Positions 27,001 through 36,785 are shown, counted from the stretch's first letter. The stretch: 48,683 bases of DNA from Rubrivivax sp. (GCA_027490215.1 JAIXYO010000015.1:1-48683); one strand, 5' to 3'. Notes: generated by a model not told the origin, from the sequence alone. Numbers and translations are program-made.

Positions 27001-27518
27001 AGGTGGTGCCAGGCACGCTGGTGATCGACCCCGATGGTGAAGGTCTGCGCTTCGACACCGACGCGGGCGCCTTGCCGGCTGGCGAGTACCGCGTGCTGCT
27101 GCGCTCGGACTCCGGCGCCTTCGTCACCCCCACGGGAGCGCTGCTCGATGGCAACTACGACGGCCGTGCCGGTGGCGACTACCAGGGCCGCTTCACCGTG
27201 CCGGTTTCTGAACGCCTCGGGGCCGCGGAGTCGATCGGTGATCTGTCGTACGAAGCGCAGGCTACCCAGGACTACGCCGACATCTTTGCGGCGCTGTCGG
27301 GAGGTTGGGGTGGCGCGATGAGCGCTGCGCTCGGACCGCTTGCCAGCAGCCGTCGGCGGCGCGGTCGTGGTGCGGATCCAACCGTTCGTGTGGACGGTCT
27401 GGATCGGCTGCACACTGACGATCTGGGCTTTGCAGTGCAATCGGTGGTGCCGACCGCGCTGGCCGCTCAGACGGGCCGCACACGGGTTTCGGCGAATGAC
27501 TGGGAGATTCGGCTTTGA
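1..27518 (+). CDS. Giant multidomain surface/secreted protein, 5' end outside window
   Basis: The frame is open from the first base, so the real start lies upstream; GTG at 24 is only the first possible start inside the window. About 9,160 residues are visible with no interruption. Order of domains (residues counted from 24): 17 CARDB-like repeats (about 12-2214), PPC/IPT-like (2215-2415), a helical then beta segment (2415-3000), propeller-like (3125-3390), Big_5-like (3390-3500), nine He_PIG Ig domains (3615-4470), RHS/YD-like (4670-4926), dockerin-like (5049-5095), Big_2-like and ZU5-like (5190-5520), second propeller-like segment (5770-6200), alpha/beta-hydrolase-like (6440-6680), five PKD domains (7235-7740), metalloprotease-like (7750-7910), jelly-roll-like, cadherin/He_PIG/PKD modules (8090-8825), Arg/Glu-rich linker, C-terminal domain. 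I found no cysteine and no RTX repeats. Such domains are typical of exported adhesins or matrix proteins. The secretion genes downstream support export. It may belong to the LEPR-XLL class of giant proteins, but the diagnostic N-terminus is not in the window. Confidence 0.9.
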   Translation, partial: PLPDAPPVRITALEVTPAPDLKPLNLQVTSAGAIEAGSTVTVSWIDRNDGVLPASVNWRDRVVITRVDTGEVLSSTVLPYDVAAAGALAAGAQTNRSLQIALPDGARGAGSLRVTVTLDIDNALAEQNITSDAETNNAANTLITSVLPTYADLQPSVLQVQPASGWQAGDTVTVTWRSSNTGTRDASGAWKETLLVRNTALNQTVQTIDVTHDGSTLAAAGGFVDRSVTLTWPSGNLATGTYSFNIALDTSGAVFEANTGGTGESNNSTTLNIASAPDVIVNGVTLDAGPVQAGGTLTLRWNTVNTGSAAVLGGFSDRVVVRNTATNQTIVNTAVLYDAVAGGNIGAGESRARQATFALPLGASGAGALEITVYADATTNGTGSVFEANASGTAEGNNAASITVTSIAAAYADLKIDSFTVPPTARGGDKVIVSWTVTNIGAAPAVGNWIDRVVLSADGVFGNADDTRTVDKPRTGPLAVGALYTESAEITLPINFDGTLNVIVRTDVGQAVLEPDTRGDNTSAKPISVAAPYSDFLVEAVTAPTAALSGTQVEIAWRVRNLGDTTAAGSWQDRVVLSQDGVFGNADDIVLATVNRSGPIAPNDSYTVRQTFTIPAELTGSWQVLVRTDVNSLVFEGGRVGNNLGTTPAALVVSPAPSANLVASSPVAASPALAGASVTVAWKVTNAGEADAVGPWVDYVYLSPDGQVAGATLLGSKARTLSLAQGASYDASLSVTLPDWADTDTARLLVVTDAAKQVYESGREADNTAGSTLALRRVDLRADQLNATPTATSGDTVTVSLNVTQAGTGSLSGTWTDRLYLSRDAVLDPSDRLLDTRSVTRTLDPSATYTSDFSVQLPVDASGAWFLIGQTDSGNVIKEVGFEGNNTAASAINIALRPYADLETTDVVAPPQTIGDPARLTVSWKVANRGTGIGLTTAWTESIIASRDGVLGNSDDIVLGTYANQRVLTVGDSYTQSETVLAPAGLSGRFTLFVRADSGNAVFENDSEANNTSSTAPVDVMPIPYADLRVVSAGTVNAAQSGGTVAVNWRVENRGIGRTDTSGWSDRVTLARNADGTDVVASGSFDHFGALAKDTGYDRVGQVELPEGLSGTFYVFVETGGAYEFIYGNNNRALAGQVTVTVAPSADLVVQSISTEKATATEGENIEISWTVLNQGDANATSAITDTVELFKPADPTVRPISLGSFSYAAGLQAGKAYTRTERVNLPARIEGGWVIRVTTNASSQVFELGTRANNNTTVDDQLLLVSTKTRPDLQVQTIDAPDAVTAGSGFAVNYQVVNRGQIGTSGLWNDKVYLSLDNKLSGDDILLDTVSNPQALAVQENYSAGTKTVSVPTRLQGQAYLIVVADGSNQVDEHPNDFNNSAVRAITINPYPPADLVASNVSAPAQAVYGSEIEVRFKVTNNGVNQTDKPTWVDSVWLARDKTRPTPGLRDEKTGVAVGNGGIFLGSAVHTGLLAKGESYEAVIKVRIPAVIESGSYFITPWTDAYDAVLEDTFVANPDDPAEFDSNNYKARAIDIIGNPTPPKPDLQVTEVVADATGSVDAPFKISWTVQNREDGAADVEWFDSVYASDLPFDNPNAKRWFLGSVARAKPLGRLDSYTSSLSVNLSPAVKASYVTVVADQDEFRLPAVDETNELNNSRSTTTQIIPRPADLVPISMTAKQQNFSGEKTTVSWTVQNQGQAVWSGTQRWTDTVFFSPDPVFGNRAIALGSVVHDNKAGLAAGASYTETADFTLPAGTDGPYYLHLVVDGGSAPVFEDVADKNSRSIRKYEGTAYEPPDLANNRFVSTIPVTYRESDLVISDLQFDAAATSGQKVDVSFTVKNQGTRNTRETVWANRIYLSRDASLDRTDLQVGQVITNLYFGGLAAGGELNYTTKIQIPEGADGSWYLIAYADADVRGIDLTGPSPTDAGSGTGALDLDSVKEFRGEGNNVTVKPIAITLRASADLRVESGSVKVPERVLTGQELKVDYRVVNAGAGATPPDQLRWVDKVYLSADDSLDLNADRLIGEVSHEGALAAGAGYDVTKRFRLGNDLVGPYYVFVITDPGDSSRPRGAVYEGANEANNATPSALQVLIEQPPPADLVVTDFNLPSGGAVNQDITLSWTVKNQGQFAAQGSWTDAVYLSADGSWSLDDIRLGQVNHNGTIDPAGTYTSPPTSFKLPPMKAGQYRVIVRPDIFNQVYEGSNEGNNTTASSNVVSVTVPELQLGVSRDTSLTVGQGQLYKVTVAAGQTLRFSLDTDRADAADEIYVRWNEVPSAAIFDASFTTPLQPDQVAVVPTSQAGDYYVLVRSLSAGASTFAAKVKVEALPFQISNVTPDQGGDGRWVTMTISGAQFKAGAVAKLVRPGISEIEPTRVQVIDATTIVAIFDLRNQPHGLYDVQVINPNGAVAVVPYRYLVERALPTDVTLGLGGTRALSPGASGLYHVTLENGTNVDTPYVYFQIGVPEMGDNAKVLGLPYVSFASNVRGGPNAADNPNAAWASLDSEVNTTGYNLAPGYVLDLQAGGFAGLNFTAQTYPGFAAILALDRVQLRTVLADARPEWITDGTFETKLTALEAFIQSGIDNPKGFAKAIGKIRQYMPFRFNVAASATALTRDDFVKRESAEAEALRLKVLADKTASRALADLASDAEGWKQSYLAALEQGGLLRPEDQAPPIRLQPRVASMLAILTSGVTLGRAGQSVQSDGDLVNFFQQVKTWYGDQRGKLAPIASYDPLIVSEDGVEELILVPVPALPTQADADLGLAQQTYFNAFNVFAKGNLNPASAAVSADLALLGLQALFDLAATANAQASITGPSGFGSQQFLPADQPLPYTVNFTNPGTASRTVNEVRIVQKLDAGVTPYSFRLGDIQLGDVTVHIPAGRASYQGDIDLRNSRGYILRVSAAVDPNTAIASWVLQAIDPLTGEVLTDATRGLLSPDDANGRGQGYVSYSVNPKFGVATGQQIKASARVTFDGQSGFDTAEVVHTFDGEAPVTALTARTLSGNAFDVQWSATDEPGGSGVRHTSIFVSVDGGAWEIWKRQTTETSGIYQGQPGKRYEFAALSTDNAGNRELARATQTLPDDGTRTNLGDVPSAGKTTIDTGKPPTPSNATSTNPLFAQAEKGLPAGASDRPSQFTQVLAPFSGAVFGTGIAQSNAGIGPLALLERPDGTFIASGGLNRGSLYVYAQDGGKALNPQTVLDTPIFDLAYDNQGGLWATSGGGQLLELDTTSFAILNRYGDSLTQALAFDAVKGVFYVSSGDGIETFDIATRRFAHFSDLRVDDLAIAPNGQLWASRWPNRGEIVSFDAQGKPSAQIVIDADLDSLAFGRKGTQLEGLLFISARKRSGYDTPISLHMVDLATLRVLQVASGGPSAEQLLATSDGRLLIANSAQVDVLSPIVAPRIVSSSPADGALVALPLDEFAITFDQDMTRPTRTEAGSVLNLTNYVIKQDGLTVTPARVRYDAPSRTVFLGFDSLEAGNYTVTVAAAITSRLGLKLGSPTTLSFIAAQDFTPYVRVDFENTRSDQLAGTISYDLRVTNTSGYDLRGPLVLLLDPQVYFAGRPGAPAQSDDGKLWRLDLSAGLIGGALKANESTVVRTVSIRNPLDQRADLGFGILALPYPNTPPTFNSTPVVQAKAGESYRYEAKATDPDGLLSGYLLVAGPAGMQVDAATGVVTWMPTAESAANTPVVLRAIDGRGAVATQRFTIAVSGGNHAPEVSSIPSVYAVREGEKLTINMLPVDADGDNAVALMDQLPPGAVFDMATGVFEWTPAFGASGTYKNVSLVVTDGRLSTAYSLAFVVLPANQLPVISAVPDGTVRQGDPVRIDFNATDADGDTVRFSAPILPAGAVIDPLSGVLTWIPGFSQTGAYDITVRASDGIGYSERTVRLTVQNANAAPVFDNLTGIQVSEGQPLQFAAFAFDPDNPGYALPYRTSDGSLAFIEGERPSVTYSVLDLPPGASFDQDTAVFSWTPTFADAGVRTVRFIATDDGDGTGVPLTTTITVPITVRNVNRAPVLPELNAVSVNKGEVLEIDITATDPDGNPLVYSAAGLPHFGELITAANGSAKLRFAPGHQDRGNSVITVSVRDNGDDGGPVSELVSSRTFVLSAVSAAEAPVLQRIGNKVALFGQPLEFNLLASDKDQDTLTFAAEGLPPSATLVPGVAYGTARFSWTPTSADAGVTTVKFTVTDSTGLSDTQTIQITARATNAAPTLAPVGNRTVAEGATLRLQLSATDTDGDSLTYVRPVNLPPGASFDVATGLLTWTPGLESAGIYGGIALSVSDGAASSSETISITVAPTNRAPLLLPVLPIGGQERSLLQFNLLGVDPDADVLIYKAISPLPAGASFDPVTGLFKWTPSHDQAGTYALKFAVLDPAGSQTEQTVTLNIADVNRLPVLAFTNHQVTLGQTLRFKVSASDPDTAETLRFSSRNLPAGATLDPVTGEIVWEPNPGQIGDHVAVIGVSDGKSSVERALALRVTALPVGPTVSLVLTPSFPSIPGQPVSITVLADAFSAVAGRSLSVNGQSLSLDDRGRAIFVAPASGLYTLQASATDLDGFSSTVSQTLKVRDPSDTAAPVAKLDASLPGRLLNSITELRGQVIDSNLDSWTLSIARAGSSNFRVIAEGSQAISGVLATLDPSSLESGPYQLRLQAMDIAGRVGESTIAIDLAAPSNPQRLTRTEVDMTVVVAGKSVQLLRRYDALATDLSGSLGYGWRLALRDVALVTDVALTGREDIGNYGPLRDGSRLYLTTPAGERVGFTFAPQRKSSAGVTWFEPKWIPDAGVNWALESAGGKLQRAGDRYYDYLTSKPYNPAGIPGVRGQYTLRGADGTAYEIDADRGISAIVYADGTRLEVSDSGIVAANGDSVRFALDAKGRIETAAAPDGRVVIYSYDDQGNLIGVRQLQAATSQRYAYDDMHRLVLATGPAGGVSIESVGGLPQSHPIVADLGPALSYLNRVVDRTLSAGEVVRYSFSVRDSELASAAGGAALVLAEVESLGGSTPPAIPHVGGLAPVASGTRGSSSFAMFRVDQAGLKLLEVSAASAGAYRFSLRAVGDINGDQRVDGVDAGLLADARRSGTALPTADFNKDGTVDANDSQLLYANLGFVANQAPTISDLPLKTHVDLEFGRSLVSILDDAEGDPTALRIVSSTGGQASVGGDGRTLVFRPTPGFSGTATVTLVADDGFSASAARTLSVNVSDSPLLTMDYAVRRPAIALGGNTPLQLIGYFADEAGVALPASYLRWSSTNPAAATIAADGVLRGKSVGWGAVTASRGDISATTAFLVGNPTQFSDLLLSTSTLDVYPDSVTLIAEGGRRQMLLDVVDGDRTSVVGAASGTRYYSSNPNVAEVSADGLVIAKAPGDALIVGVYKMLEAVMPVRVVVPTLGPANLGIEGGAVANAEGMKLAVAPGSLKEVTTVSIKALDRADLPISVLDGNGWTYSNAFQLDVGPDPLKVPVQLSIPTPNLAAGSRVVFYRLFDFPQPDGTFKKGWLQVESGTVGADGVARTTSPPDPGVGGSGAYIVAGAEFGVLIDARGTVSIQIPIGIPRSIMSALPFGELIGAFVGGPDVSIVFPLGQIKLRMAQILDNGQYVHSTADVNLVKNNDGSNRASFSVTLPTVLPDAPDQPQITGLSFEYRKQTGSELREPIVKLRGKSFTYNNPAAPEPIGSTVADVRVVAYQGVDLETTQQQRDTDFAPGTPAVGSRSPKPIAIEVESITDLGNGEQEITFLVPRKVVLGEATFEVARRTLLPDQFVNGVLSWRETIVRSARVDIPLGTEYVFGTLIAPDQVVAMKRSNNVATSANEVVAKIDVGQDGVSDVPRAIALTNDGKRGYVVLRNTGRLALIDAQSLQQVDTNPNTPAMDLIDLFPDARPGAIAIDMRDQYAYVTDSDKGQRYKLNPLTGALEELPPNQQTKGRIYVVDIDPLSATYNKMVRTIDVDAPFSLRNSGLIVTADNQTLMVGVPGQRTTGKQTPSDKPGTVALISIANARTRLANPNGDANLYATTYLNASHEPYAFTRTSDPNRMLFSNRMFDGAGVGLLEKSGDSWTIKNYLRMALGRPNDTFDVNNISSIVVTNDLKYAFVAGYNAFIQGLPSQDPNYSSINPSGSNVGIVYNPFNLPQFRAQGVTLFGAPTTADDPASASEVIGVEQPGYSGYLVAATRSIPNSFMDNLVLSDDGKYLYAAYTMSGAVMAYDVDEIIKAVEKPINNASILGAPGTRVLENLAINEIVDGRSIFSPTYYPPGPLPPAVTDTLPYTGNLAIDVNADYRAYKAGGAVRFETRDPKQGPLGVGLIRSLVAQPTQLKLISPTIGTPDVKPRPEFTWSLGQIVGDSKLFISTLPPGQGLFPSDTTPQQLAATNPVGALGGDANRNRIFSKVIAFQGSGIQSYTLNEQDSFANDIRLTAGNTYYWGIEVTGTDGRTYRASRAFNVDAIDSKVTDRFSGVTVLTHGLQAPYLTSSQADIALGDLLLMGKKIVAPGGGSVFYLDPITGKWVSALASQQGLQIQDVPVGKPIALITNWTLDSAIGDTGFAEAAADSFFAHLMRLDELTQGKLGKSPLQFIGQGRGASINSELIQRLGTYRADITDIQMTTLDPHDFAQSNLDLPIEDALAGLKKASDFIGLIPPLRWMKAIGKVFETAATAVKYAGLSKVPYGDFSDPNVQVWSNVRFADNYWQALGAGPVVDDFGEPPPPPPDPDAEVSDLFTFTSNGREIFGADVNIDLTRRAGFIKDETVGFKIGYLPPNIGAGWGIGLPNQRLMTWYLGTIDLSLTERASLFGTKDRVVRQLADLRFNRDDQIADPVLDALVSLENYAIAEPWYRAWYADKGETISDWQTDAAASWEGVGTGWAWSHLGGSTSNFDLAQSEEDRIAINESNLVNGSNAASSTTEYGEWDATVPTVFNGNFEASARPWYGRFPVIAPTWFELPGWSLQGGGSSLSEDQRTFTDSAQGIGLSPSLDERALRLWFEELKIGQTEVVKVSLDAMKAFMTEVLVKGAVGNLKDAVKRFLTSTPAEQPDMAKFFADYLVQGVFTSAFEDISKITDVREALGAIGEYFASPTNPVNPFGTKSFFTKETNLTKVLGSFAKDMVIDKIKDGVPDLLKFVFEKFIDWRFQVTESTSLRHNYLYFPPSATHLQFDYKIDQSQWVGTDATLAKLKLRFQAIGSDQWVDVPDVVEVRVPDQQFKRAIWALPAGMAGRTGRFQFYMVNGGTTLATKSEVLIDNVKLVLANSTGGEDTPPQITSMSVLPSPVDEGGSVTLNATFTDVGQLPGQRYQVLIDWGDGSAATIQQLPTGSSTVTATHVYKDDNPTGTPSDRYDVRLEIFDGSLQSATTFDQVEVVNVPPLVGAFFDSFSVNEGGTGRLKVTVSERSDLDTLQMRVVWADGSSEYRDIGTSREEQIFEHVFPDDGPTAAPFDDEDVRVFVWDDDMSVAQAVIETATIRVKNLPPVVTAGPSPTLLPGEFFTPTASFTDPGVADTHTYLWQIFDGNGALIASSTTLDAPTVQLNVPGTYTAVFTVTDDDGGVGTATVPALVTSVPQGAGFLSFSSLNDRVNEGSAITLSGEVLGAFGVGIFSVRVDWGDGSPATVIAINQTTATTLIPFSATHTYADDNPPGSPVQVSADLFFSLPDGTLVLADNKVKQLFIDNVAPVLATSFPIPTQPTGSTNTLVFSAIVATPDPGADAQTFTFDFGDGTTSTGLTPVAMHTFAGPGTYLVRITLDDGDGGTSSVRSRLVIPATGSPPALAAWTSPFQRAALATPPSSPVGQVLGSDADLTSVARQAVAEWLSAGYDFAVADPLAAVRFEITDLPGDILSLSYLNTGERLIRIDRDAGGWGWYVDSTPASALEFDTAISTRERQATSGPAAGAFDLLTALTHEFGLLLGLPYGSGVMQERLDPGTRRFASDVPRLVQGAVGSLANGDFELPSGSVNGAWRMEGGAAIQSGQGVLTESARSANRLSQAFTIPAGAQSLSFDIVSTAFDIASGGPGDAFEVSLLDADTAASLAGVVSLTQTDALLNVQADGAVRLATGVTMSSMTGSRLAAGTKTRVSIDLRQVPAETRAVLGFNLIGFGTLGSRVVVDNVAFNLGENTAPQAVGDVVVTNEDTPVLFDPRANDNDAQGQGLQILIVSGPTHGTLNSNADGTLTYTPVANYSGNDEFTYQVSDGSLLSNLVSVAFTIGQVNDAPTLAPVASLSANEGDVINVNLVAADIESDALTYVFDAAPADATIDAQGRITWKAVDGPASAVFTVRAVDSKGASSAARSFTVNVVNVAPTFTVEVPTTIRAGNAFNISLLATDPGQDTISQWRIDWGDGTQSTLAGTATSADHTYAAALSGAAIIVQASDEDGTWTAPAITRNVLPNNTTANDAPVATADSFTTPRDTAKVLDVLGNDSDPNGDVLSAVVVTGPAHGLLVANPDGTLTYTPALDYSGPDSFTYRATDGLGQSGIVTVSLNVTPVNHPPVLAAVADANVNEGSTFTVKLAATDADADGLTYVLDAAPAGAVVDAAGNITWTATDGPASVLFTAYAVDAQGASSATRSFTVNVANVAPTLAVTVPAVIRAGEAFAIGLLASDPGADTVSQWRIDWGDGTQSTVAGTATSAGHTYAAALTGAAITVQAIDEDGTWTAPVINRDVLPISTPVNNAPVLAPVANANVLEGSTYTVALAGTDADGDALTYVLDQAPSGASIDAAGVVRWNAVNGPAVGNFTARAVDAAGASSEAVSFVVTVANVAPVITVSAPATVRAGTPFTLRLSATDPGADTISQWLINWGDGTQSSVAGASAGAAVNASHTYSAARAGTGIVVRAVDADGTWTAPTVTRDVLAASPNPSPRPRIDDDGRERQKERERESRERDSERERERERERSDSDSRRTRIESRDGERSDRRLGVGMVDQTAHRSNRVLAVVVADGRPSTTADGSAALTAEAMQALIESNPTAAGVPGLSSTEVLQINSMVATERGLRVRFNQALSAAALQAQSASGSALQLMRGDQVVPGTLVIDPDGEGLRFDTDAGALPAGEYRVLLRSDSGAFVTPTGALLDGNYDGRAGGDYQGRFTVPVSERLGAAESIGDLSYEAQATQDYADIFAALSGGWGGAMSAALGPLASSRRRRGRGADPTVRVDGLDRLHTDDLGFAVQSVVPTALAAQTGRTRVSANDWEIRL
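57..6665 (+). repeat. Array of 17 CARDB-like domains in the giant protein
   Basis: Seventeen units of about 115-145 residues each start with an A/P-D-L motif (near 57, 451, 830, 1234, 1600, 1977, 2334, 2697, 3076, 3436, 3815, 4183, 4638, 5013, 5450, 5894 and 6303). They share a core of the type SWTVxNxG, then W-x-D-x-V-x-LS-x-D, and end in an E-x-N-N turn. This is the pattern of CARDB (cell-adhesion-related, bacterial) domains. The units are divergent in sequence, so the array is old, unlike the modules near the C-terminus. Confidence 0.85.
9400..10190 (+). other. Propeller-like segment 1 of the giant protein
   Basis: Short units such as I-F-D-L-A-Y-D-N-Q-G-G-L-W-A-T-S-G-G-G and L-A-I-A-P-N-G-Q-L-W-A-S repeat at about 40-residue spacing. 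This is typical of YncE/NHL-like beta-propeller blades. A Big_5-like Ig domain follows (about 10200-10530). The fold is inferred from repeat spacing only. Confidence 0.55.
10866..13440 (+). repeat. Nine He_PIG/cadherin-like Ig repeats
   Basis: Nine units of about 90-115 residues begin near 10866, 11140, 11415, 11688, 12036, 12340, 12626, 12900 and 13176. Each has an N-x-x-P-x-(I/L/F) start, an A-x-D-x-D-G-D type calcium-binding turn, a L-P-x-G-A-x-x-D segment and a (T/R)-F-x-W-x-P strand. This is the He_PIG/dystroglycan-type cadherin-like signature. Confidence 0.8.
14035..14800 (+). other. RHS/YD-like segment inside the giant protein
   Basis: The segment has the usual entry of RHS proteins: a R-R-Y-D-x-x-A motif followed by S-L-G-Y-G-W-R. 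YD-type strands follow (I-Y-S-Y-D-D-Q-G-N-L, then R-Y-A-Y-D-D-M-H-R-L). Only two to three YD units are visible and no toxin domain follows. It is probably a structural beta segment and not a polymorphic toxin cage. Confidence 0.6.
15168..15306 (+). other. Dockerin-like calcium-binding pair
   Basis: Two EF-hand-like loops, D-I-N-G-D-Q-R-V-D-G-V-D and D-F-N-K-D-G-T-V-D-A-N-D, lie about 33 residues apart and each is followed by a short helix. This is the duplicated pattern of type I dockerins. In giant exported proteins such motifs may bind calcium or a partner; no cohesin is visible in this window. Confidence 0.7.
17340..18620 (+). other. Propeller-like segment 2 (YncE-like)
   Basis: Repeated strands include R-A-I-A-L-T-N-D-G-K-R-G-Y-V-V, G-L-I-V-T-A-D-N-Q-T-L-M-V and N-L-V-L-S-D-D-G-K-Y-L-Y-A-A. 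These match the blade motif of YncE/surface-antigen beta-propellers. The region lies between an IPT-like segment and the hydrolase-like segment. The fold is inferred. Confidence 0.55.
19335..20060 (+). other. Alpha/beta-hydrolase-like domain with degenerate nucleophile elbow
   Basis: The segment starts with V-T-V-L-T-H-G, the usual oxyanion-strand motif of lipase-like hydrolases. It later has P-L-Q-F-I-G-Q-G-R-G-A-S at about 19686-19721, where active relatives carry G-H-S-R-G. The expected nucleophile serine is a glycine here (GQGRG, 19701-19715). A later T-T-L-D-P-H motif resembles the region after the acid strand. The fold seems kept and catalysis is probably lost. Confidence 0.55.
21728..23240 (+). 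repeat. Five tandem PKD-like domains
   Basis: Units begin near 21728, 22040, 22355, 22640 and 22965. Most carry the PKD hallmarks: a D-x-G-D-G turn (I-D-W-G-D-G, V-D-W-G-D-G, F-D-F-G-D-G) and an H-x-Y/F strand before the last strand (A-T-H-V-Y, A-T-H-T-Y, M-H-T-F). The second and third units are less typical. PKD domains are extracellular structural or binding modules. Confidence 0.8.
23270..23750 (+). other. Degenerate matrixin/serralysin-like metalloprotease segment
   Basis: A helix of the type V-A-R-Q-A-V-A-E-W, then an A-L-T-H-E-F-G-L-L-L-G-L-P-Y motif at 23640-23681, then V-M-Q-E-R-L-x-P-G-T-R, follow the layout of HExxHxxGxxH metzincin-like domains found in giant bacterial proteins. 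The first His, Glu and the Gly are kept, but the second His is Leu and the third is Tyr. It is most likely inactive. Confidence 0.6.
24290..26500 (+). repeat. Cadherin-like and He_PIG-PKD modules, recently duplicated
   Basis: The order is cadherin/VCBS-like (24290-24565), He_PIG-PKD unit A (24566-25112), cadherin-like (25122-25395), unit B (25396-25938), unit C (25951-26500). Units A and B are close to identical over long stretches at DNA level, for example around 24931-25025 and 25763-25857. C is clearly related. Each unit ends with D-G-T-W-T-A-P. The similarity points to recent tandem duplication. Confidence 0.85.
26523..26690 (+). repeat. Arg/Glu/Ser-rich charged linker with gagcgt hexamer repeats
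   Basis: About 55 residues are dominated by Arg, Glu, Asp and Ser. At 26595-26624 the hexamer gagcgt occurs four times in tandem followed by one gagcgc variant, encoding alternating Glu-Arg. The repeat keeps frame, so slippage would change linker length without breaking the gene. The linker separates the Ig/PKD modules from the C-terminal domain. Confidence 0.85.
26700..27515 (+). other. C-terminal domain and tail of the giant protein
   Basis: After the charged linker there is a Big_5/SwmB-like sandwich (L-R-V-R-F-N-Q-A-L at about 26910, then G-E-Y-R-V-L-L-R-S-D). Then come an N-Y-D-G-R-A-G-G-D-Y-Q-G turn, a small Gly/Ala segment, a basic S-R-R-R-R-G-R-G patch at about 27345-27370, and a tail ending D-W-E-I-R-L. 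There is no LPXTG, PEP-CTERM or RTX element. If a C-terminal export signal exists it should be here; that is an inference. Confidence 0.5.
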
Positions 27519-28915
27519 TGGTTGCTCTGACTCGGTTATCGACGCGCCCCGGTTGTGGCCTTCGTCTGCTCGCGGTGTGTCTGGCGCTCGGCAGCGCTGG
27601 CGCCTCCGCCCAGCAAGCCTCAAGCCCTGCCGCGACCCAGGCTCCCTCAGCCGCGTCATCCCGCGGCGCCGGCCTGAGCGCCATCCTCGAGCTGGCGCGC
27701 GCCAACGACGCGCAGTACGCGGCAGCAGTGGCAGCAACAGACGCCGGGCGGGAGAAGCTACCGCAAGCCCGCGCAGCGAACCTGCCCAGCATCAACGCCA
27801 CTTACAACCCCAAGCGCAGCAACAACCGATCGTCGGAGTATTCGGGCGGGCGCACCTTCAGTGCAAACAGCGCCGCACTGACCGTCACCCAGGCGCTGAT
27901 CCGGCCGGCCAACTGGGCGGGCACCGACCAGGCCGAATTGCAGGTGCAGCTCGCCGAGCAGCAACTGCAGCTGGCCGAGCAGGACCTGCTGCTGCGCGTG
28001 TCGCGCGGCTATTTCGATGTACTGCAGGCGCAGGACGATCTGGCCGCCGCCTCGGCACAGCAGGACGCGATGGTCCAGCAGCTCGCACAGACCAAGCGCA
28101 GCCTGGAGGTCGGCACGGTGCCGATCACCGATTTCAACGAGGCGCAGGGTCGCCACGACCTAGCCGTGGCGCAACGCATCGCCGCCGTCAATGAGCTGGA
28201 GTCGAAGAAGCGGGTGCTCGAGCGCTACATCGCGCAACCGCTTCCGGCGCTCGCCAGCCTGGGCGCGGCAGCCAGTGTGGATCAGCTCACGCCGGACATG
28301 CAGCGCCAGCTGGTGGCCGATGCGCCGAACAATGCATTGCAGGTGATCATTGCGCGCACCTCCACGCAGGTGGCCGAGAAGGAGATCAGCCGTCGCGAAG
28401 CGGGGCATTACCCGACGCTCGATCTGGTGGGCACGGTGCGCGATGACCGCAACCAGAACTACGGGCAGTTCGGCGGCAGCAACACGCGCGAAGCCAGCAT
28501 CGGGGTCGAGTTGACGATCCCCATCTACCAGGGTGGCGCGGTGAGCTCTCGCACCCGCGAGGCGATCGCTGACCGCAACCGCGCGCTGCAGGAGCTGAGC
28601 GACGCCCAGCGGCAGGCCACGCTGGACGCGCAGCAGGCGCAGTTGGGGGTGCAGTCGGGCAGCGCCCTCACCCAGGCCTTGAAACAGGCGCTGATCTCGA
28701 GCGAGACGCAACTCAAGAGCACGCAGCGCGGCCTGCAGGTGGGCGTGCGCACCCGCGTGGACGTGCTCAACGCGGAGCAGCAGCTGTTTGCCACCCGCAA
28801 GGACCTGGCTGCTGCCCGCTACAAGACGCTGGTGGCGGCCTTGCAACTGAAGGCCGCAGCGGGCTCTCTGGCAGAAGCCGACCTCCGCGCGCTTGATGCG
28901 CTGCTGAACGATTGA
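27518..28915 (+). CDS. TolC-family outer membrane channel
   Basis: The 465-residue protein has a signal peptide ending A-S-A|Q-Q near residue 32. Long Gln/Ala/Leu-rich helices follow in the two-fold repeat of TolC proteins, including the late V-L-N-A-E-Q-Q-L-F motif that matches the conserved segment of the family. E. coli TolC is 493 residues, so this is full length. TolC trimers form the outer-membrane duct of type I secretion and efflux. The ATG at 27518 overlaps the stop of the giant gene (TGATG), so the two are probably translationally coupled; TTG at 27515 is a less likely start. This position makes it the probable exit channel for the giant protein. Confidence 0.92.
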   Translation: MVALTRLSTRPGCGLRLLAVCLALGSAGASAQQASSPAATQAPSAASSRGAGLSAILELARANDAQYAAAVAATDAGREKLPQARAANLPSINATYNPKRSNNRSSEYSGGRTFSANSAALTVTQALIRPANWAGTDQAELQVQLAEQQLQLAEQDLLLRVSRGYFDVLQAQDDLAAASAQQDAMVQQLAQTKRSLEVGTVPITDFNEAQGRHDLAVAQRIAAVNELESKKRVLERYIAQPLPALASLGAAASVDQLTPDMQRQLVADAPNNALQVIIARTSTQVAEKEISRREAGHYPTLDLVGTVRDDRNQNYGQFGGSNTREASIGVELTIPIYQGGAVSSRTREAIADRNRALQELSDAQRQATLDAQQAQLGVQSGSALTQALKQALISSETQLKSTQRGLQVGVRTRVDVLNAEQQLFATRKDLAAARYKTLVAALQLKAAAGSLAEADLRALDALLND

Positions 28916-29020
28916 GGGCCATACCGAGGGCGCTGTTGCAGGGAATGCGCGGCATCTTCCCGGTTCTGACCGCACCGGGCCGGTTCCCTGGGAGCCGACT
29001 ATCGGGCATGCTTAGCCACC

Positions 29021-30844
29021 ATGGCTGCAGTCATCGATAACGATCCGGACATTCCGACCGGCGACCCCTGGAGCGCACTGGCTCAGGCATTGACTGCCGA
29101 CGCCTTGTGCCGCTCGTGGCTGGAAGTGCTGTGCCGCGATCTCGTCCATGCCGAAGCCGGACTGCTGCTGATGGCACAAGCCGATGGTGCCTACGCGCCC
29201 GTAGCGGCCCACCCGGCCGATCGCGACCTGAGCCACCTGCGCGAGATCGCCACCGAGGCGCTGAAAACCCGCGACGCCGCATTGCGGCGCGACGACCTCG
29301 GCCATGTACAGATGGCGTTCCCGCTGCTCAGCGGCGACCAGTTGCAAGGCGCGGTCGTGCTGGAGCTGGGTCGCGTCCAGCAGACCAGCGTGGACCAGGC
29401 CTTGAAGCTCGTCAACTGGGGCGCCGGCTGGCTGGTGGGCCTGCTGCACCAGCGGGAACTGGCGAAGCAGCGTCAGTGCCTGCAACAAGGCAGCTTCCTG
29501 CTCGATTCCCTGCTCGGCCTGCTGGCCGAGCGCTCGCCGCGCGAAGCGGCGCTGGCGCTGGTGAACCGACTCGGGCGTGAATTCGACAGTCCGCAGGTGC
29601 ATCTGGCAGTGGCGCGAGGCCAGACACTGCAGTTGCTGGCGCTGAGTCATGCCGCCTGGTTCGACGAAAAGGCAGGCGTGCTGCGGCAAGCGATACAGGC
29701 GATGCACGAAGCGATGGATCAACGCCGGCGCATCGCCTGGCCGCCCAGCGACGAAGGGGCCGACGCCACCGTGACCGCGGCGCACCGGCGCTATGCCGAG
29801 GAAGCAGGCGCGCAGGCGCTGCTCAGTCTGCCATTGCTGCACGACGGCCGCGTCGCGGGCGTGTTGATGCTGGAGCACCGCACCGCCTTCACGCCAGCAG
29901 ACATCGAATACCTCGAGAGCGTGGCCATCGGGCTGGCCCCGGCCCTGATGCTGCAGCGCGAGGCGCACGAAGGGGCGGTGATGCGCGCCCGGCGCACGGC
30001 CCGCCGCAGCATGGAAACAGTGCTCGGTCCGCGCTACCCGGCCATCAAGCTGGCGGCGGCAACACTTGGTGTCGTGCTGCTGATGCTCGCAGTGGTACCG
30101 GTGCCGTTTCGAATTTCGTCCCAGGCGCTGGTCGAAGGCTCGGTGCAGCGCGCAGCGGTCGCGCCATTCGAGGGCTATCTGCGCGAAGCACCGGTACGGG
30201 CTGGCGATGTGGTGAAGGCGGGCCAGGTGCTGGCCACGCTCGATGACCGCGACCTGAAGCTGGAGAAGGTGCGCTGGGAGTCGGAGCTGGAAGTCTCCCT
30301 GCGCAAGGAGCGCGAAGCGATGGCCAACGGCAATGCTGTCGAGCAGCGGCTCGCTGGCGCGCAGGCGAATCAGGCGCGTGCACAGATGGACCTGGCAGTG
30401 TCCAAGCTGGAACGCGTCAGCATCCTCGCGCCATTCGATGGCACGGTGGTCAAGGGCGACTTGACTCAACAGCTCGGCTCGCCGGTCGAACAGGGCAAGG
30501 TGCTCTTTGAGCTGGCGCCGCTGGACGCCTGGCGCGTGATCCTGAAAGTCGATGAGCGCGACATCGGCCATGTGAAGGTCGGTGCCGGAGGCGAGTTGGT
30601 GCTGGCCAGCCTCCCGGGTCAATCGTGGCCTTTCAGCGTCAAGAAGCTGACGCCGATCTCGGTCGCCGAGGATGGCCGCAACCACTTCCGCGTCGAGGCC
30701 GAACTCGGCCCGGGCGCGCCGCGTCTGCGGCCGAACATGGAAGGCGTGGGCAAGGTCGATGCTGGCCACGCCAGCCTGATGTGGATCTGGACACGCCCGC
30801 TGGTCGACTGGGTGCGTCTGACCTGGTGGAAGCTGCTGCCGTGA
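29021..30844 (+). CDS. GAF-GAF-TM-HlyD fusion adaptor
   Basis: The 607-residue protein has two parts. Residues 1-330 are cytoplasmic and read as two GAF-like domains; the second is clearer, with L-S-L-P-L-L-H-D-G-R-V-A-G-V-L-M-L at about residues 267-283. One membrane helix follows at about 342-362. The rest is a periplasmic HlyD/membrane-fusion adaptor: a first lipoyl half (A-P-F-E-G-Y-L, A-G-D-V-V-K-A-G-Q-V-L-A-T-L-D), a short Glu/Arg-rich hairpin, a second lipoyl half (I-L-A-P-F-D-G-T-V-V-K-G-D) and a beta-barrel. GAF domains sense small molecules, or bind proteins. Their fusion to an adaptor suggests that export is gated by a cytoplasmic signal, which is an inference. There is no good Shine-Dalgarno; the ATG is the first in frame after a 105-bp gap. 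Confidence 0.85.
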   Translation: MAAVIDNDPDIPTGDPWSALAQALTADALCRSWLEVLCRDLVHAEAGLLLMAQADGAYAPVAAHPADRDLSHLREIATEALKTRDAALRRDDLGHVQMAFPLLSGDQLQGAVVLELGRVQQTSVDQALKLVNWGAGWLVGLLHQRELAKQRQCLQQGSFLLDSLLGLLAERSPREAALALVNRLGREFDSPQVHLAVARGQTLQLLALSHAAWFDEKAGVLRQAIQAMHEAMDQRRRIAWPPSDEGADATVTAAHRRYAEEAGAQALLSLPLLHDGRVAGVLMLEHRTAFTPADIEYLESVAIGLAPALMLQREAHEGAVMRARRTARRSMETVLGPRYPAIKLAAATLGVVLLMLAVVPVPFRISSQALVEGSVQRAAVAPFEGYLREAPVRAGDVVKAGQVLATLDDRDLKLEKVRWESELEVSLRKEREAMANGNAVEQRLAGAQANQARAQMDLAVSKLERVSILAPFDGTVVKGDLTQQLGSPVEQGKVLFELAPLDAWRVILKVDERDIGHVKVGAGGELVLASLPGQSWPFSVKKLTPISVAEDGRNHFRVEAELGPGAPRLRPNMEGVGKVDAGHASLMWIWTRPLVDWVRLTWWKLLP

Positions 30845-30863
30845 GGCAGTGCCCTGGCGCCAG

Positions 30864-33023
30864 ATGAGCGGCCCGCTGCTGTCAGACAACTGGTACCGCA
30901 TGCGGCAATTGCGGCCGCGGCTGCGCGGCCATGTTCGCATCCACCGCCACGAGTACCGCGGCGAGGTCTGGTACGTGATCGAAGATCGCATGGCGGCCAA
31001 GCACCAGCGCTTCAACTTCCAGGCCTATCGGGTGATCGACCTGATGGATGGCAACCGAAGCATGGACGACATCTGGGATGCGCTGTGCGCCGACCTGAGC
31101 GACGAGACACCGGCGCAGTCAGACGTGCTGCGACTGCTGTCGACGCTGCACGCGGCCGACCTCGTGCAGATGGATGTCACACCGGATGTGGCCGAGTTGC
31201 TGCATCGCCGTGGCAAGCAGGTCCGCAGCAAATGGATGGCGCGAGTGGGCAATCCGCTGGGCCTGCGCATCCCTCTGTTCGACCCCGATGGCCTGCTCCG
31301 CCGCATGGTGCACACCGCACGCCAATTCGCACGCCATGGCGGCCCCCTGCCCTGGGTGCTGACATGGCTCGCCGTCGTGCTGCCTGCGCTGCTGATGGTG
31401 CCAGCGCAGTGGTCACAGCTGTCGGTCCACTCCACCGATCAGCTGCTGGCGACCGACAACCTGCTGATGCTGGCGCTGCTGTTCCCGCTGGTGAAGCTGG
31501 TTCATGAATTCGGCCATGGGCTGGCCTGCAAGGCCTTCGGTGGCGATGTGCATGAATCAGGCGTCATGCTGCTGGTGCTTTACCCGGTGCCGTATGTCGA
31601 TGCATCGAACGCCTCGACATTCGTCAACAAATGGCAGCGGGCCCTGGTGGGCGCTGCCGGCATGCTGGCCGAGCTGTTCGTGGCGGCGCTCGCCTTTTAT
31701 GCCTGGCTGCTGCTGGAACCCGGCACACCGCGCGGCATCGCCTACAACGTGGCGGTGCTGACCAGTGTCACGACACTGTTCTTCAATGCCAACCCGCTGC
31801 TGCGCTTCGACGGCTACTACATCCTCATCGACATCATCGAAGCGCCGAACCTCGGCAGTCGCGCCAACCGCTACTGGCAATACCTGGCCGAACGCTTTGT
31901 GTTTGGCGTCAAGCGCACCGAAGCACCACAGGCCACACTGGGCGAGAAGCGCTGGTTCGTGCTGTATGCGCCGGTGTCGTATGTCTACCGCCTGATCATC
32001 TCTTTCTCGATCGCGCTGTTCGTGGCCACCCAGTTTTTCGTGGTCGGCGTCATGCTGGCGATCTGGACGGTGACGCAAAGCGTGATCTGGCCGCTGTTCA
32101 AGGCCATCAAGGCGCTGGTGACCGGGCCGCAGTATGCCGATCGGGGCCCCCGCGTTCGCGGCGTGATGGGCGCGGGACTCGTCCTCGTGGCGCTGCTGCT
32201 GTTCGTCGTGCCGCTGCCGCACCACACCATGGCCACGGGCGTGCTGTGGCTGCCCGAGCATGCGATCGTTCGTGCGGAAAGCTCAGGCTTCGTGCGCCAG
32301 TTGCTGGCCCAACCGGGATCCGAACTGGTTTCGGGCGCGGCGGTGGTCGACATGGTGGAGCCCGGTCTGGCCGCACGCATCGCGGTGCAGGAGGCCAAGG
32401 CCGATGAAGTGCGTGCGCAGTACGACGCCGCCTGGGGCCAGTCGCAGTCAAAGGCGCAGCAACTGGAGCAGCAACTGGCCCGCGAAACGGCCTCGCTTGA
32501 GCGCCTGCAGGACGACGCGCGGCGCCTGACCCTGCGCACGCATGCGGCAGGCACGCTGCTCGTTCAATCGCCGGAAGACCTGCCCGGGCGCTACCTGAAG
32601 CAAGGCGACGTGGTGGGCTACCTGCACACGCCGGATGAGCCTTTGGTCCGACTGGTGGTGCCGCAAAGCGAGGTCGACTCGGTGCGGCTGGACACCCGCG
32701 CGGTCGAGGTGCGGCTGGTACAGGACACTGCGCGGCTTTTCGAAGCGACGCTGGCGCGCAGCACGCCAGGCGCTGTGCACCAGTTGCCCAGCGCTGTCTT
32801 GGGCAGCAAGGGTGGTGGACCGGAGCAGACCGATCCACGCGACGACAAGGGGCTGACCACGCTGGAGTCGGTCTTCGAGTTCGAGTTGCTGCTGCCAGGG
32901 AACGTGCCTCACGACTTCCTGGGCAGCCGTGTGCATGTGCGCTTTGAGCACGAGCCCGAGCCGATCGCGTGGCGACTGGGTCGCTCGGTGCGGCGCCTGT
33001 TCCTGTCGCACTTCGACGCCTGA
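30864..33023 (+). CDS. PqqD-like / site-2 protease (M50) / HlyD fusion
   Basis: The protein has about 719 residues from the ATG at 30864; GTG at 30849 would add five. Residues 1-100 resemble a PqqD/winged-helix peptide-binding domain (Y-R-V-I-D-L-M-D-G-N-R-S-M-D-D-I). Several membrane helices then carry H-E-F-G-H (31503-31517), the M50 zinc site, and N-P-L-L-R-F-D-G-Y-Y (31791-31820), which supplies the third zinc ligand Asp. After a last helix (about residues 430-450) comes a periplasmic HlyD-like part with a lipoyl half, a Gln/Glu-rich coiled coil and a beta-barrel. All protease residues are intact. It follows the GAF-HlyD gene by 20 bp and precedes the SecA-like gene by 10 bp. It may hold or process the substrate in the membrane. 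M50-HlyD fusions are known in genomes, but I know of no settled function. Confidence 0.87.
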   Translation: MSGPLLSDNWYRMRQLRPRLRGHVRIHRHEYRGEVWYVIEDRMAAKHQRFNFQAYRVIDLMDGNRSMDDIWDALCADLSDETPAQSDVLRLLSTLHAADLVQMDVTPDVAELLHRRGKQVRSKWMARVGNPLGLRIPLFDPDGLLRRMVHTARQFARHGGPLPWVLTWLAVVLPALLMVPAQWSQLSVHSTDQLLATDNLLMLALLFPLVKLVHEFGHGLACKAFGGDVHESGVMLLVLYPVPYVDASNASTFVNKWQRALVGAAGMLAELFVAALAFYAWLLLEPGTPRGIAYNVAVLTSVTTLFFNANPLLRFDGYYILIDIIEAPNLGSRANRYWQYLAERFVFGVKRTEAPQATLGEKRWFVLYAPVSYVYRLIISFSIALFVATQFFVVGVMLAIWTVTQSVIWPLFKAIKALVTGPQYADRGPRVRGVMGAGLVLVALLLFVVPLPHHTMATGVLWLPEHAIVRAESSGFVRQLLAQPGSELVSGAAVVDMVEPGLAARIAVQEAKADEVRAQYDAAWGQSQSKAQQLEQQLARETASLERLQDDARRLTLRTHAAGTLLVQSPEDLPGRYLKQGDVVGYLHTPDEPLVRLVVPQSEVDSVRLDTRAVEVRLVQDTARLFEATLARSTPGAVHQLPSAVLGSKGGGPEQTDPRDDKGLTTLESVFEFELLLPGNVPHDFLGSRVHVRFEHEPEPIAWRLGRSVRRLFLSHFDA

Positions 33024-33033
33024 GCACACCGCG

Positions 33034-35025: not shown

Positions 35026-35047
35026 GCACTATCCCGATTCCGAGACC

Positions 35048-35875
35048 ATGACATTTCACACCCTGCCTCGTCTGATCTGCGTCGTGATATGGACGGCTGT
35101 TGCAGTGACTCAGCCCGCCGATGCCGCACCCACCAGTGGCTATGCCTGCCTGATCGAGCCTTCGCAGCGCGTCGAGTTGCGCAGCGTGGTCGAAGGTCGC
35201 ATCGATGCGATCAACGTGGACCGCGGAGCCGAGGTGCGCAAGGGGCAGGTACTGGTCGAACTCGAAAGTGCTGCCGACCGCGCGGCGCTCGATGCAGCAC
35301 GCTACCGCGCGGTGATGGAAGGACAGCTGAAGTCCGCCGAGAGCCGTCGCCAGGCCGCCCAAACCAAGCTGACGCGCCGCGACAACCTCGTTCAGGAAAA
35401 ATTCATCGCCGCCCAGGACCGTGACGACACCGCCGCCGAGCTGTCCCTGGCCGAGGCCAGCGTGGTCGAAGCACAGGACAACCGCCGGCTCGCCGAGCTG
35501 GAGCAGCGGCGGCTGCAGGAGACGCTCGAGCAGCGGCGCATCCGCAGCCCGATCAACGGCGTGGTGACCGATCGCCTGCAACACGTGGGTGAGATCGCGC
35601 AGGCAGGCGAGAGTGCTCGCGCGATCCTGAAGCTGGCACAGGTGAATCCGCTGCGCATCGACGTGGTGCTGCCGGTCGGGCTGTTCGGCAAGGTGAAGGT
35701 CGGCGCGCCCGCGAAGATCACGACCGAGGCACCCCTGCTGGGCCAGTACACCGCCGCGGTATCCGTGGTCGATCGGGTCGTCGATTCCGCCAGTGGCACC
35801 TTTCGAGCTCGCCTCGATCTGCCCAACCCCAAGGGAGACATCCCGGCCGGCGTGAAGTGCTCTGTGCAGTTCTGA
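35048..35875 (+). CDS. Periplasmic HlyD-type adaptor protein
   Basis: The 275-residue protein has an N-terminal signal peptide or anchor (residues 1-26, ending A-D-A|A-P). A lipoyl half with V-E-G-R-I-D-A-I-N-V-D-R-G-A-E-V-R-K-G-Q follows, then an alpha hairpin rich in Ala, Glu and Arg, the second lipoyl half (R-I-R-S-P-I-N-G-V-V-T-D) and a beta-barrel with D-S-A-S-G-T-F-R-A-R-L. This is a compact efflux-type periplasmic adaptor. It lies 22 bp after the SecA-like gene. ATG 35048 is chosen because it precedes the signal peptide; GTG 35012 would overlap secA. It is the third adaptor of the locus, so the periplasmic bridge to TolC could be mixed. Confidence 0.88.
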   Translation: MTFHTLPRLICVVIWTAVAVTQPADAAPTSGYACLIEPSQRVELRSVVEGRIDAINVDRGAEVRKGQVLVELESAADRAALDAARYRAVMEGQLKSAESRRQAAQTKLTRRDNLVQEKFIAAQDRDDTAAELSLAEASVVEAQDNRRLAELEQRRLQETLEQRRIRSPINGVVTDRLQHVGEIAQAGESARAILKLAQVNPLRIDVVLPVGLFGKVKVGAPAKITTEAPLLGQYTAAVSVVDRVVDSASGTFRARLDLPNPKGDIPAGVKCSVQF

Positions 35876-35972
35876 ACGGTCTTTTGCGCCCGGTCATTCC
35901 CTTCAGAGCACCTCGCGTCTCGTCATCTCCTCAACGCCACCACGCTTCTTCACGCTACCGACAGGAGCCTTC

Positions 35973-36785
35973 ATGTCCAAGTTGATGTTCTATGAGCGCC
36001 CCATCGCGCTGAACCGCGAGCGACACGCCAGCCTGAAGCTGGCAGTGATGCCCGATCACTACCGCTTCGCGGCACGAACCAATGCCGTGCCGATCATGAG
36101 CACCGAGTTCGCCGACGCGGCACGCGACTACCCGATCGTCTTCGTCGGCGAAGAGGGAAAGGCCTTCAATGTCGCCGCACTCGTCGGCATGCGCGATCAG
36201 GAAAACCTGATGGTCGACGGGGACGGCCAGTGGGCCAAGGGTGTCTACGTGCCCGCCTTTGCGCGTCGCTACCCGTTCGTGCTGTCCAAGACCGACGACA
36301 GCGACAACCTGACGGTTTGCGTCGACGAGGTCTACCCCGGCCTCGGCCTCGAGCGAGGCGAGGCGCTTTTTGGGCCCGATGGCAAGGAGACAGCGTACCT
36401 GCAGCGGGTGCTCGAGTTCCTGCAGGCCTTCCACGGCGACGCCCAGCGCACGCTCGACTTCGCGACGCGGCTCGCAAAGCTGGGCTTGCTGGTGCCCAAG
36501 GTCATCAGCGTCGAGCGCCCGGGCGAGCCGGTGCAGACGCTGCGAGGCCTGTGGATCGTCGACGCTGCAAAGCTGCGCGGCATCGACGACGCGCGGGTGG
36601 TTGAATTGTTCCGCGACGGCTACCTGTCGTGGATCGAGGCACACCTCATCTCCCTCGGCAACTTCACGCGGTTACTGGCGAGAATGGAACGACCTGCAAT
36701 AGCCACGAGCGTGCCCGCAGACGCGGCCGAGGGCAGTGGCACAACGCCTGGGAGTTTCGGCGGCGTCACTTCCGACCTGCACTAG
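35973..36785 (+). CDS. SapC-family protein
   Basis: The 270-residue protein fits the SapC family (PF07277): an early H-x-x-L-x-L segment, Y-P-I-V-F, A-x-V-G-x-R-x-x-E-N-L-x-V-D, Y-V-P-A-F-A-R-R-Y-P-F, L-R-G-L-W-I-V-D-A-A-K-L and a C-terminal helix A-H-L-I-S-L-G-N. It has no signal peptide and is likely cytoplasmic. The start is supported by AGGAG five bases upstream of ATG 35973. In Campylobacter fetus, sapC lies with the type I export genes of the S-layer protein. Here it again closes a cluster for export of a huge surface protein, so a chaperone or substrate-handling role is plausible. The biochemical role of the family is not known. Confidence 0.88.
   Translation: MSKLMFYERPIALNRERHASLKLAVMPDHYRFAARTNAVPIMSTEFADAARDYPIVFVGEEGKAFNVAALVGMRDQENLMVDGDGQWAKGVYVPAFARRYPFVLSKTDDSDNLTVCVDEVYPGLGLERGEALFGPDGKETAYLQRVLEFLQAFHGDAQRTLDFATRLAKLGLLVPKVISVERPGEPVQTLRGLWIVDAAKLRGIDDARVVELFRDGYLSWIEAHLISLGNFTRLLARMERPAIATSVPADAAEGSGTTPGSFGGVTSDLH

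Follow-up and report, generated by a model that had tools for sequence, protein, structure and literature searches.

A conserved PqqD-M50-HlyD gene cassette tied to giant surface proteins with an N-terminal LEPR leader: a predicted export system

How does a bacterium export a surface protein of more than 10,000 residues when the genes beside it encode an outer-membrane duct and periplasmic adaptors, and no ATP-binding cassette (ABC) exporter? The question is raised by a 48,683-nucleotide stretch of Rubrivivax sp. (GCA_027490215.1 JAIXYO010000015.1:1-48683; here called the window, meaning the whole stretch analysed), in which a giant gene is followed by six genes, for a TolC-type duct, an adaptor with a GAF region (GAF-HlyD), a PqqD-M50-HlyD fusion (M50-HlyD for short), a short SecA-like ATPase, a small HlyD adaptor and a SapC family protein. 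We propose, with a probability that we put at roughly one half, that this cassette is a dedicated machine, predicted from genomes, which exports and matures giant surface proteins carrying an N-terminal LEPR leader.

The cassette and its conserved core

All six genes lie on the + strand, separated from TolC to SapC by successive gaps of 105, 4, 10, 22 and 97 bases, and the first starts inside the end of the giant gene, the ATG of TolC at 27518 overlapping the giant's TGA (27516-27518) in a TGATG that a first-pass annotation of the sequence had pointed out. That annotation had also assigned a family to each gene and remarked on the lack of an ABC exporter. Both readings hold, in that profile searches support every family call (Table 1), while Pfam and family-model searches find no ABC domain in the six genes; nor is there a SecY among them. 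The components that type I systems require from the TolC and HlyD families are present, in the window and in the cassette respectively. The SecA and small HlyD frames extend further upstream, with 33034 and 35048 as the likely ATGs. GAF-HlyD has an N-terminal GAF region, then one membrane helix (placed by eye), then a periplasmic adaptor; the GAF region on the N-terminal side of the helix may be a sign that a small ligand influences export.

Since the window is an entire contig (G000:C57, one of 72 in a 3.5 Mb genome), the giant gene is truncated at its 5' end by the contig start. The 9171 residues that are left contain CARDB, He_PIG, Big_9, Ig-like, cadherin-like, PKD and RHS-type domains. 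They include no cysteine and, up to and including the C-terminal end, no RTX motif, in a scan that a repeat-free C-terminal signal would escape. A 3192-residue N-terminal piece of the same giant is encoded on another contig of the genome (G000:C4, locus L147) and matches residues 27-2966 of the G009 giant in two parts, and the window's piece starts at residue 2928 of that protein. The gene therefore appears to be split over the two contigs, with a predicted total of about 12,300 codons by the G009 comparison. Homologues of the giant in G003, G009 and G048 occupy frames of 12,195 to 14,768 codons, stop to stop.

Does the arrangement recur elsewhere? At least 589 contig stretches encode a relative of M50-HlyD, not all of them necessarily fusions, and the best 80 were analysed, with labels of Pseudomonadota, Thermodesulfobacteriota, Myxococcota, Nitrospirota and Rokuibacteriota. 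Being the closest of the set, these loci favour what we call branch A below. After L146 had been dropped as a copy of L042, 79 named loci were retained, the near copies L037 and L132 both among them. Our own GC-based gene caller missed some cassette genes in GC-rich loci, and later counts were therefore taken from hidden Markov model hits on stop-to-stop frames. By these counts GAF-HlyD precedes M50-HlyD at a distance of up to 3 kb in all 76 evaluable named loci, short SecA starts within 1.3 kb downstream of it in 68 of 74 (weakly in L133; absent from L078, L125, L126, L138, L141 and L143), and small HlyD is found within 9 kb in 60 of 79. An ABC-type motif pair occurs in 4 of 105 stretches, in none of them within 5 kb of the M50 start. 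The gene set is thus a conserved unit tied to giant genes and devoid of an ABC exporter, in support of the first-pass annotation. The expectation of that annotation that all six genes travel together stands for GAF-HlyD and M50-HlyD and, in branch A, for short SecA, and is not borne out for SapC or TolC (below). As a separate observation, one locus of the Nitrospiraceae (L102, 7182-15632) has an extra frame that separates M50-HlyD from GAF-HlyD, and its SecA is followed by two small HlyD genes.

SapC lies within 6 kb in only 19 of 97 branch A loci (17 of the 79 named loci and 2 of 18 loci from relatives of the Rubrivivax genome), between M50-HlyD and short SecA in L109, L121, L123, L124 and L131. 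Among 100 relatives it occurs in 22 genomes, in the cassette in 3 of them and elsewhere only in 19, and it is also present in the control genome of Caulobacter vibrioides. Because SapC occurs where there is no cassette, it probably has another role, and it was rejected as a core part. In the sap S-layer locus of Campylobacter fetus, a SapC family protein adjoins a surface-protein export set; our cassette differs from that locus in that none of its six genes encodes an ABC protein and SapC is optional.

Within the 100 relatives, M50-HlyD is encoded by 18 (own genome included) and is sporadic, reaching 4 of the 14 other genomes of the genus, one of which, G005, has no copy outside branch B. Each of the 18 short-SecA matches that reach 787 bits adjoins an M50-HlyD gene; the next SecA match, at 601 bits in G077, is the sole one of that genome (at most 12 candidates were scored per genome). 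Across 82 sets, M50-HlyD, SecA and GAF-HlyD have correlated distance matrices (r 0.89-0.90), a correlation that includes species relatedness and that 0 of 1000 permutations equalled. In a FastTree phylogeny of 105 M50-HlyD proteins, which has long branches, seven relatives lacking short SecA form branch B, and seven more are scattered through the rest, branch A. Three branch B loci searched with Pfam all have TolC, and two of these were confirmed to have, besides a small HlyD, another adaptor, which in one case includes GAF. We conclude that the conserved core consists of GAF-HlyD, PqqD-M50-HlyD, small HlyD and a giant with an LEPR start, joined in branch A by short SecA.

The LEPR leader

What do the giants have in common? 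Where their starts can be read, those of branch A mostly begin with a basic stretch, then LEPR, then residues of SAD or SGD type, and many giants' N-termini exceed the cut-off of the LEPR-XLL model (NCBIfam NF012209); the NCBIfam name for the leader model in branch A giants is LEPR-8K. The G000:C4 piece of the Rubrivivax giant has an N-terminal match, 24 residues in length, at 30.3 bits (cut-off 17). LEPR also stands at giant starts in G003, G009, G048 (two) and G058, and branch B giants start with it too (L049, L179-L181). The loci hold 23 matches to the LEPR pattern, of which two antisense ones (L034, and L132 on the minus strand) look spurious.

Another way to view the leader is by its distribution across whole genomes (all Fisher tests that follow ignore relatedness). 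Among the 100 relatives an LEPR match was found in 16 genomes, 14 of them among the 18 with M50-HlyD (p 8e-12), the other two being weak. Across 249 genomes of the phylum, 79 of which encode M50-HlyD, LEPR-8K is present in 45 genomes, 44 with M50-HlyD and one without (G307). Another variant came to light next to branch B in L049; when the DNA was scanned for sequences encoding EPRx[MLIF]FDGA, this variant proved to be present in 39 of the 249 genomes, against 1 for the reversed pattern, and 38 of the 39 have M50-HlyD, the exception (G285) being 57% complete. Taken together, one or other variant is carried by 63 genomes, comprising 61 of the 79 with M50-HlyD and 2 of the 170 others (p 5e-39).

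The variants also differ in which branch they accompany. Counting leader sites on the same contig as an M50-HlyD match among those listed, which gives lower bounds, at least 24 of 56 FDGA sites lie within 20 kb, all of them beside branch B, as compared with at least 18 of 64 other LEPR sites, 9 beside A and 9 beside B (p 1e-4). Within 50 kb, among the listed matches, the figures are 24 B for FDGA and 20 A plus 12 B for other LEPR sites (p 4e-7). The branch label in these counts is the start of the profile match, and was checked on the DNA for the 24 B and for 16 of the 20 A cases. Short SecA was found in 15 of these 16 A stretches (one weak), and the M50-HlyD scores of the fetched stretches, 432-546 in B and 662-1029 in A, do not overlap. 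Thus, one leader variant is matched to one branch of M50-HlyD.

The leader does not resemble a strong hydrophobic signal: the best 11-residue mean hydropathy at the giants' N-termini is at most 1.98 (hydropathy being the only measure used), as compared with 2.37 for TolC and 2.75 for small HlyD. In G088 there are seven LEPR matches, frames of up to 14,056 codons and three M50-HlyD genes, on several contigs, and with seven leaders to three such genes one cassette may serve several giants. LEPR-XLL is named once in each of two genome or virome papers, in the portions of PMC10868602 and PMC9611531 consulted, and we found no work on its function in the open-access literature. The tie of this cargo signal to the cassette is a new lead, beyond what the earlier reading of the sequence could see. 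Through it, a named domain with no job in the literature searched gains a likely role as a sorting leader, with the PqqD-like domain as its likely reader and M50 as its likely protease.

The fusion protein and the short SecA

How could the fusion protein act on such a leader? PqqD-like domains have a leader-binding fold, the recognition element (RRE) of ribosomally synthesised and post-translationally modified peptides (RiPPs), and bind peptide leaders. In the structure model of M50-HlyD (mean predicted local distance difference test score, pLDDT, 90.7) the N-terminal domain consists of three strands followed by three helices. Foldseek's 50 top-ranked matches to the complete model are all adaptors, and the PqqD assignment therefore comes from sequence profiles and from the topology of the model. 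Branch B N-termini are missed as PqqD by Pfam, yet hhalign identifies them as homologues of the branch A domain with a probability of 98.9. Across alignments of 25 and 47 M50-HlyD proteins, H219, E220 and H223 of the first M50 motif and N313, P316, D321 and Y323 of the second are invariant, and the domain accordingly has the HExxH and second Asp motif that would be expected of an active metalloprotease. No solved-structure match among those listed in a profile search covers the M50 core. The C-terminal half of the model is an adaptor of MacA/MexA type. Pfam at 0.001 did not detect this part in the window's protein; it did see M50 and HlyD domains together in 6 of 6 branch B relatives.

Both the ATPase domains and the preprotein cross-linking domain are retained in the short SecA, which lacks most of the C-terminal part. 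Its Walker A, DEAD-like, GRGTD and arginine-finger residues are invariant or nearly so in alignments, and its model (pLDDT 91.2) has a TM-score of 0.79 on 5eul, a SecA-SecY-substrate structure. The alignment stops at residues 605-608 of Bacillus subtilis SecA, near residue 640 of the genome's own ordinary SecA (a 936-codon frame on G000:C46), leaving about 280 final residues of the latter without a counterpart. In full-length SecA such a region would comprise the greater part of the helical scaffold together with the wing, the C-terminal zinc tail and the two-helix finger, which inserts into SecY. The four SecA2 models listed all score below cut-off (TIGR04397 510/1085, TIGR03714 448/930, TIGR04221 428/725 and NF012136 388/1100 bits). 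The short SecA would be a useful variant for asking how much of SecA suffices to push a protein. In branch A loci uncut by a contig end it elsewhere scores at least 639 bits. In L133 (Seongchinamella unica, 11826-14078) and L213 the gene in the SecA position reaches only 163 and 172 bits, and may be a strongly diverged form or a different ATPase that has replaced it.

Table 1. Features of the window, with the evidence for each assignment
Feature	Position	Strand	Evidence or remark
Giant surface protein gene	3..27518	+	9171 codons here, 5' end lost at contig start
TolC-type outer-membrane duct	27518..28915	+	OEP 8.9e-48; TIGR01844 282 bits (cut-off 225)
GAF-HlyD	29021..30844	+	GAF 2.7e-10; HlyD_3 1.1e-16
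PqqD-M50-HlyD fusion, polytopic, cassette core	30849..33023	+	M50 2.9e-6; PqqD 6.9e-6
PqqD-like N-terminal domain, residues ~15-106	30891..31166	+	Pfam PqqD 6.9e-6; PDB 3g2b E 0.002
M50 motif HEFGH, residues 219-223	31503..31517	+	25 and 47 aligned proteins
M50 motif NANPLLRFDGYY, residues 313-324	31785..31820	+	25 and 47 aligned proteins
Periplasmic adaptor half, MacA/MexA-like, residues ~455-705	32211..32963	+	Foldseek MexA 4e-11; profile vs MacA 1e-7
Short SecA-like ATPase, 663 residues	33034..35025	+	SecA_DEAD 5.4e-90
Small HlyD/RND-type adaptor, 275 residues, N-terminal hydrophobic stretch	35048..35875	+	RND_mfp 128 bits (cut-off 95)
SapC family protein, optional component	35973..36785	+	SapC 2.1e-69
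Opposite-strand frame bounding the cassette	37130..38869	-	amidohydrolase-like by eye only

Proposed routes of export

That a domain of leader-binding type shares one protein with an intramembrane protease and an adaptor, and is tied to proteins that bear a short conserved leader, suggests that one machine reads, clips and exports the giants. The joint export function that the first-pass annotation had proposed is on this evidence plausible. In such a machine, the PqqD-like domain would bind the LEPR leader at the cytoplasmic face, the polytopic M50 protein with its fused periplasmic adaptor would serve as the inner-membrane platform and clip the leader, and GAF-HlyD and small HlyD would complete the periplasmic channel up to TolC. 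In branch A the short SecA would drive the unfolded chain, and in branch B another energy source would do so, perhaps the housekeeping SecA or the proton motive force. In its most complete form, which we hold more tentatively and rate at somewhat under an even chance, the proposal amounts to a new secretion class with RiPP-style leader recognition for giants: a PqqD-like domain on an intramembrane protease-adaptor fusion would capture the LEPR leader of a protein of more than 10,000 residues, feed the protein to a TolC duct and cut the leader without ABC, RND or MFS parts, one branch would add as its motor a SecA stripped of the SecY-engaging end, and leader variant and machine branch would have diverged together. 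It would offer an outlet for giant genes that have no obvious secretion route, and among the proteins tied to the set are very large predicted bacterial ones (frames of more than 14,000 codons).

How far would this depart from known systems? Giant adhesins of the LapA/SiiE type leave by type I secretion, which shares with the cassette the TolC duct, an HlyD-type adaptor and a giant repeat cargo; the cassette has an M50-adaptor fusion and a short SecA in place of the ABC protein, and its cargo has the N-terminal LEPR motif and, in the window's giant, no RTX motif. Tripartite pumps (MacAB/AcrAB/EmrAB-TolC) share TolC and an adaptor fold close to MacA and MexA, but the inner-membrane part of tripartite and type I systems is ABC, RND or MFS according to the part of PMC8277102 consulted, whereas here it would be the M50 protein. 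Accessory Sec systems (SecA2-only and SecA2/SecY2) likewise have a second SecA besides the housekeeping one; ours falls under the four SecA2 cut-offs, lacks the C-terminal region and has no SecY in the six genes, and its cargo is without a strongly hydrophobic signal, as judged by hydropathy only. The daptide M50 protease model NF041824 matches the PqqD-M50 half over residues 23-406 at 143.6 bits (cut-off 300), and the epipeptide protease EpeP is proposed, in the portion of PMC10885120 consulted, both to cleave and to export a leader-bearing peptide. From these RiPP leader proteases the cassette differs in its fused adaptor and in a cargo of more than 10,000 residues rather than a small peptide. 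The SecA-like domain of PMC8195603, as far as the consulted part of that paper describes it, is unrelated to the short SecA. We found no description of this gene set in the open-access literature, a scope that leaves preprints and most subscription journals outside.

Several observations weigh against a dedicated one-machine route. Neither leader variant is found in 18 of the 79 M50-HlyD genomes. A TolC-like gene is present in 24 of 105 stretches, so that TolC, like SapC, is inconstant across loci; many stretches end inside the giant, and a TolC gene lying further out would have escaped the count. No branch B locus has the short SecA (0 of 7 loci and 0 of 24 fetched stretches, two of which end at a contig start just downstream), and on the tree the absence of short SecA requires six changes, three of them forced by well-supported branches. 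It cannot therefore be the universal motor, and was ruled out as one; the earlier idea that a SecA-like ATPase replaces the ABC protein is conceivable for one subtype, branch A, and fails for branch B and for some A loci. Where present, the short SecA lacks what is presumably the SecY-contacting region. Long frames are poor evidence, being found near the cassette on the same strand in 71 of 104 cases and on the opposite strand in 53 of 104, and in GC-rich genomes frame length alone proves little; long frames were set aside as proof of giants. Finally, we know of no M50 protease that has been shown to pass a giant protein.

The main rival is a two-step route coupled to Sec, in which the short SecA (the housekeeping SecA in branch B) would send the giant through SecYEG, the adaptors and TolC would carry it outward, and M50 would trim or release it. 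The ATPase and cross-linking domains of the short SecA, its invariant motifs and its fit to 5eul all agree with this, and the absence of short SecA from some lineages is easier to explain if the housekeeping SecA substitutes. Nevertheless, the weak hydrophobicity of the leader, by hydropathy only, the end of the short SecA near B. subtilis residue 605, some 280 residues early and presumably before the wing, two-helix finger and C-tail, and the lack of SecY among the six genes make the route unlikely, if still a serious competitor. Less likely again is a role for the cassette confined to maturing, anchoring or gating the giants at the envelope, their exit being by an ordinary type I ABC exporter from another locus. 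LssB-, PrtD- and HlyB-type ABC proteins score over cut-off elsewhere in the Rubrivivax genome, so that export could proceed in trans, which counts against the one-machine proposal, and 10 of 12 cassette genomes have at least one of the three (12 genomes for LssB and PrtD, 5 for HlyB). However, G064 (96% complete) and G069 (100% complete) combine the cassette and LEPR matches with none of the three types over cut-off, although the match in G069 is weak (22.7 bits) and on a different contig from the cassette, a further point against our proposal. The window's giant also lacks RTX motifs, and adaptors, as well as a TolC in the window, are encoded by the cassette itself. That the genes are neighbours by chance, or form an efflux or regulatory system with no relation to the giant gene beside it, gains something from the occurrence of GAF and adaptor domains in unrelated systems and from the inconstancy of SapC. 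The synteny across loci with several phylum labels, the pairing of short SecA with M50-HlyD in 18 of 18 cases and the leader association make it highly improbable, and we reject it for the core, sampling artefacts apart.

Promoter and terminator scans gave nothing above chance. Downstream of the cassette and its bounding frame, a TRAP-type transporter pair and a phospholipase D-like gene were recognised by eye only (43926-46792 and 46904-48304).

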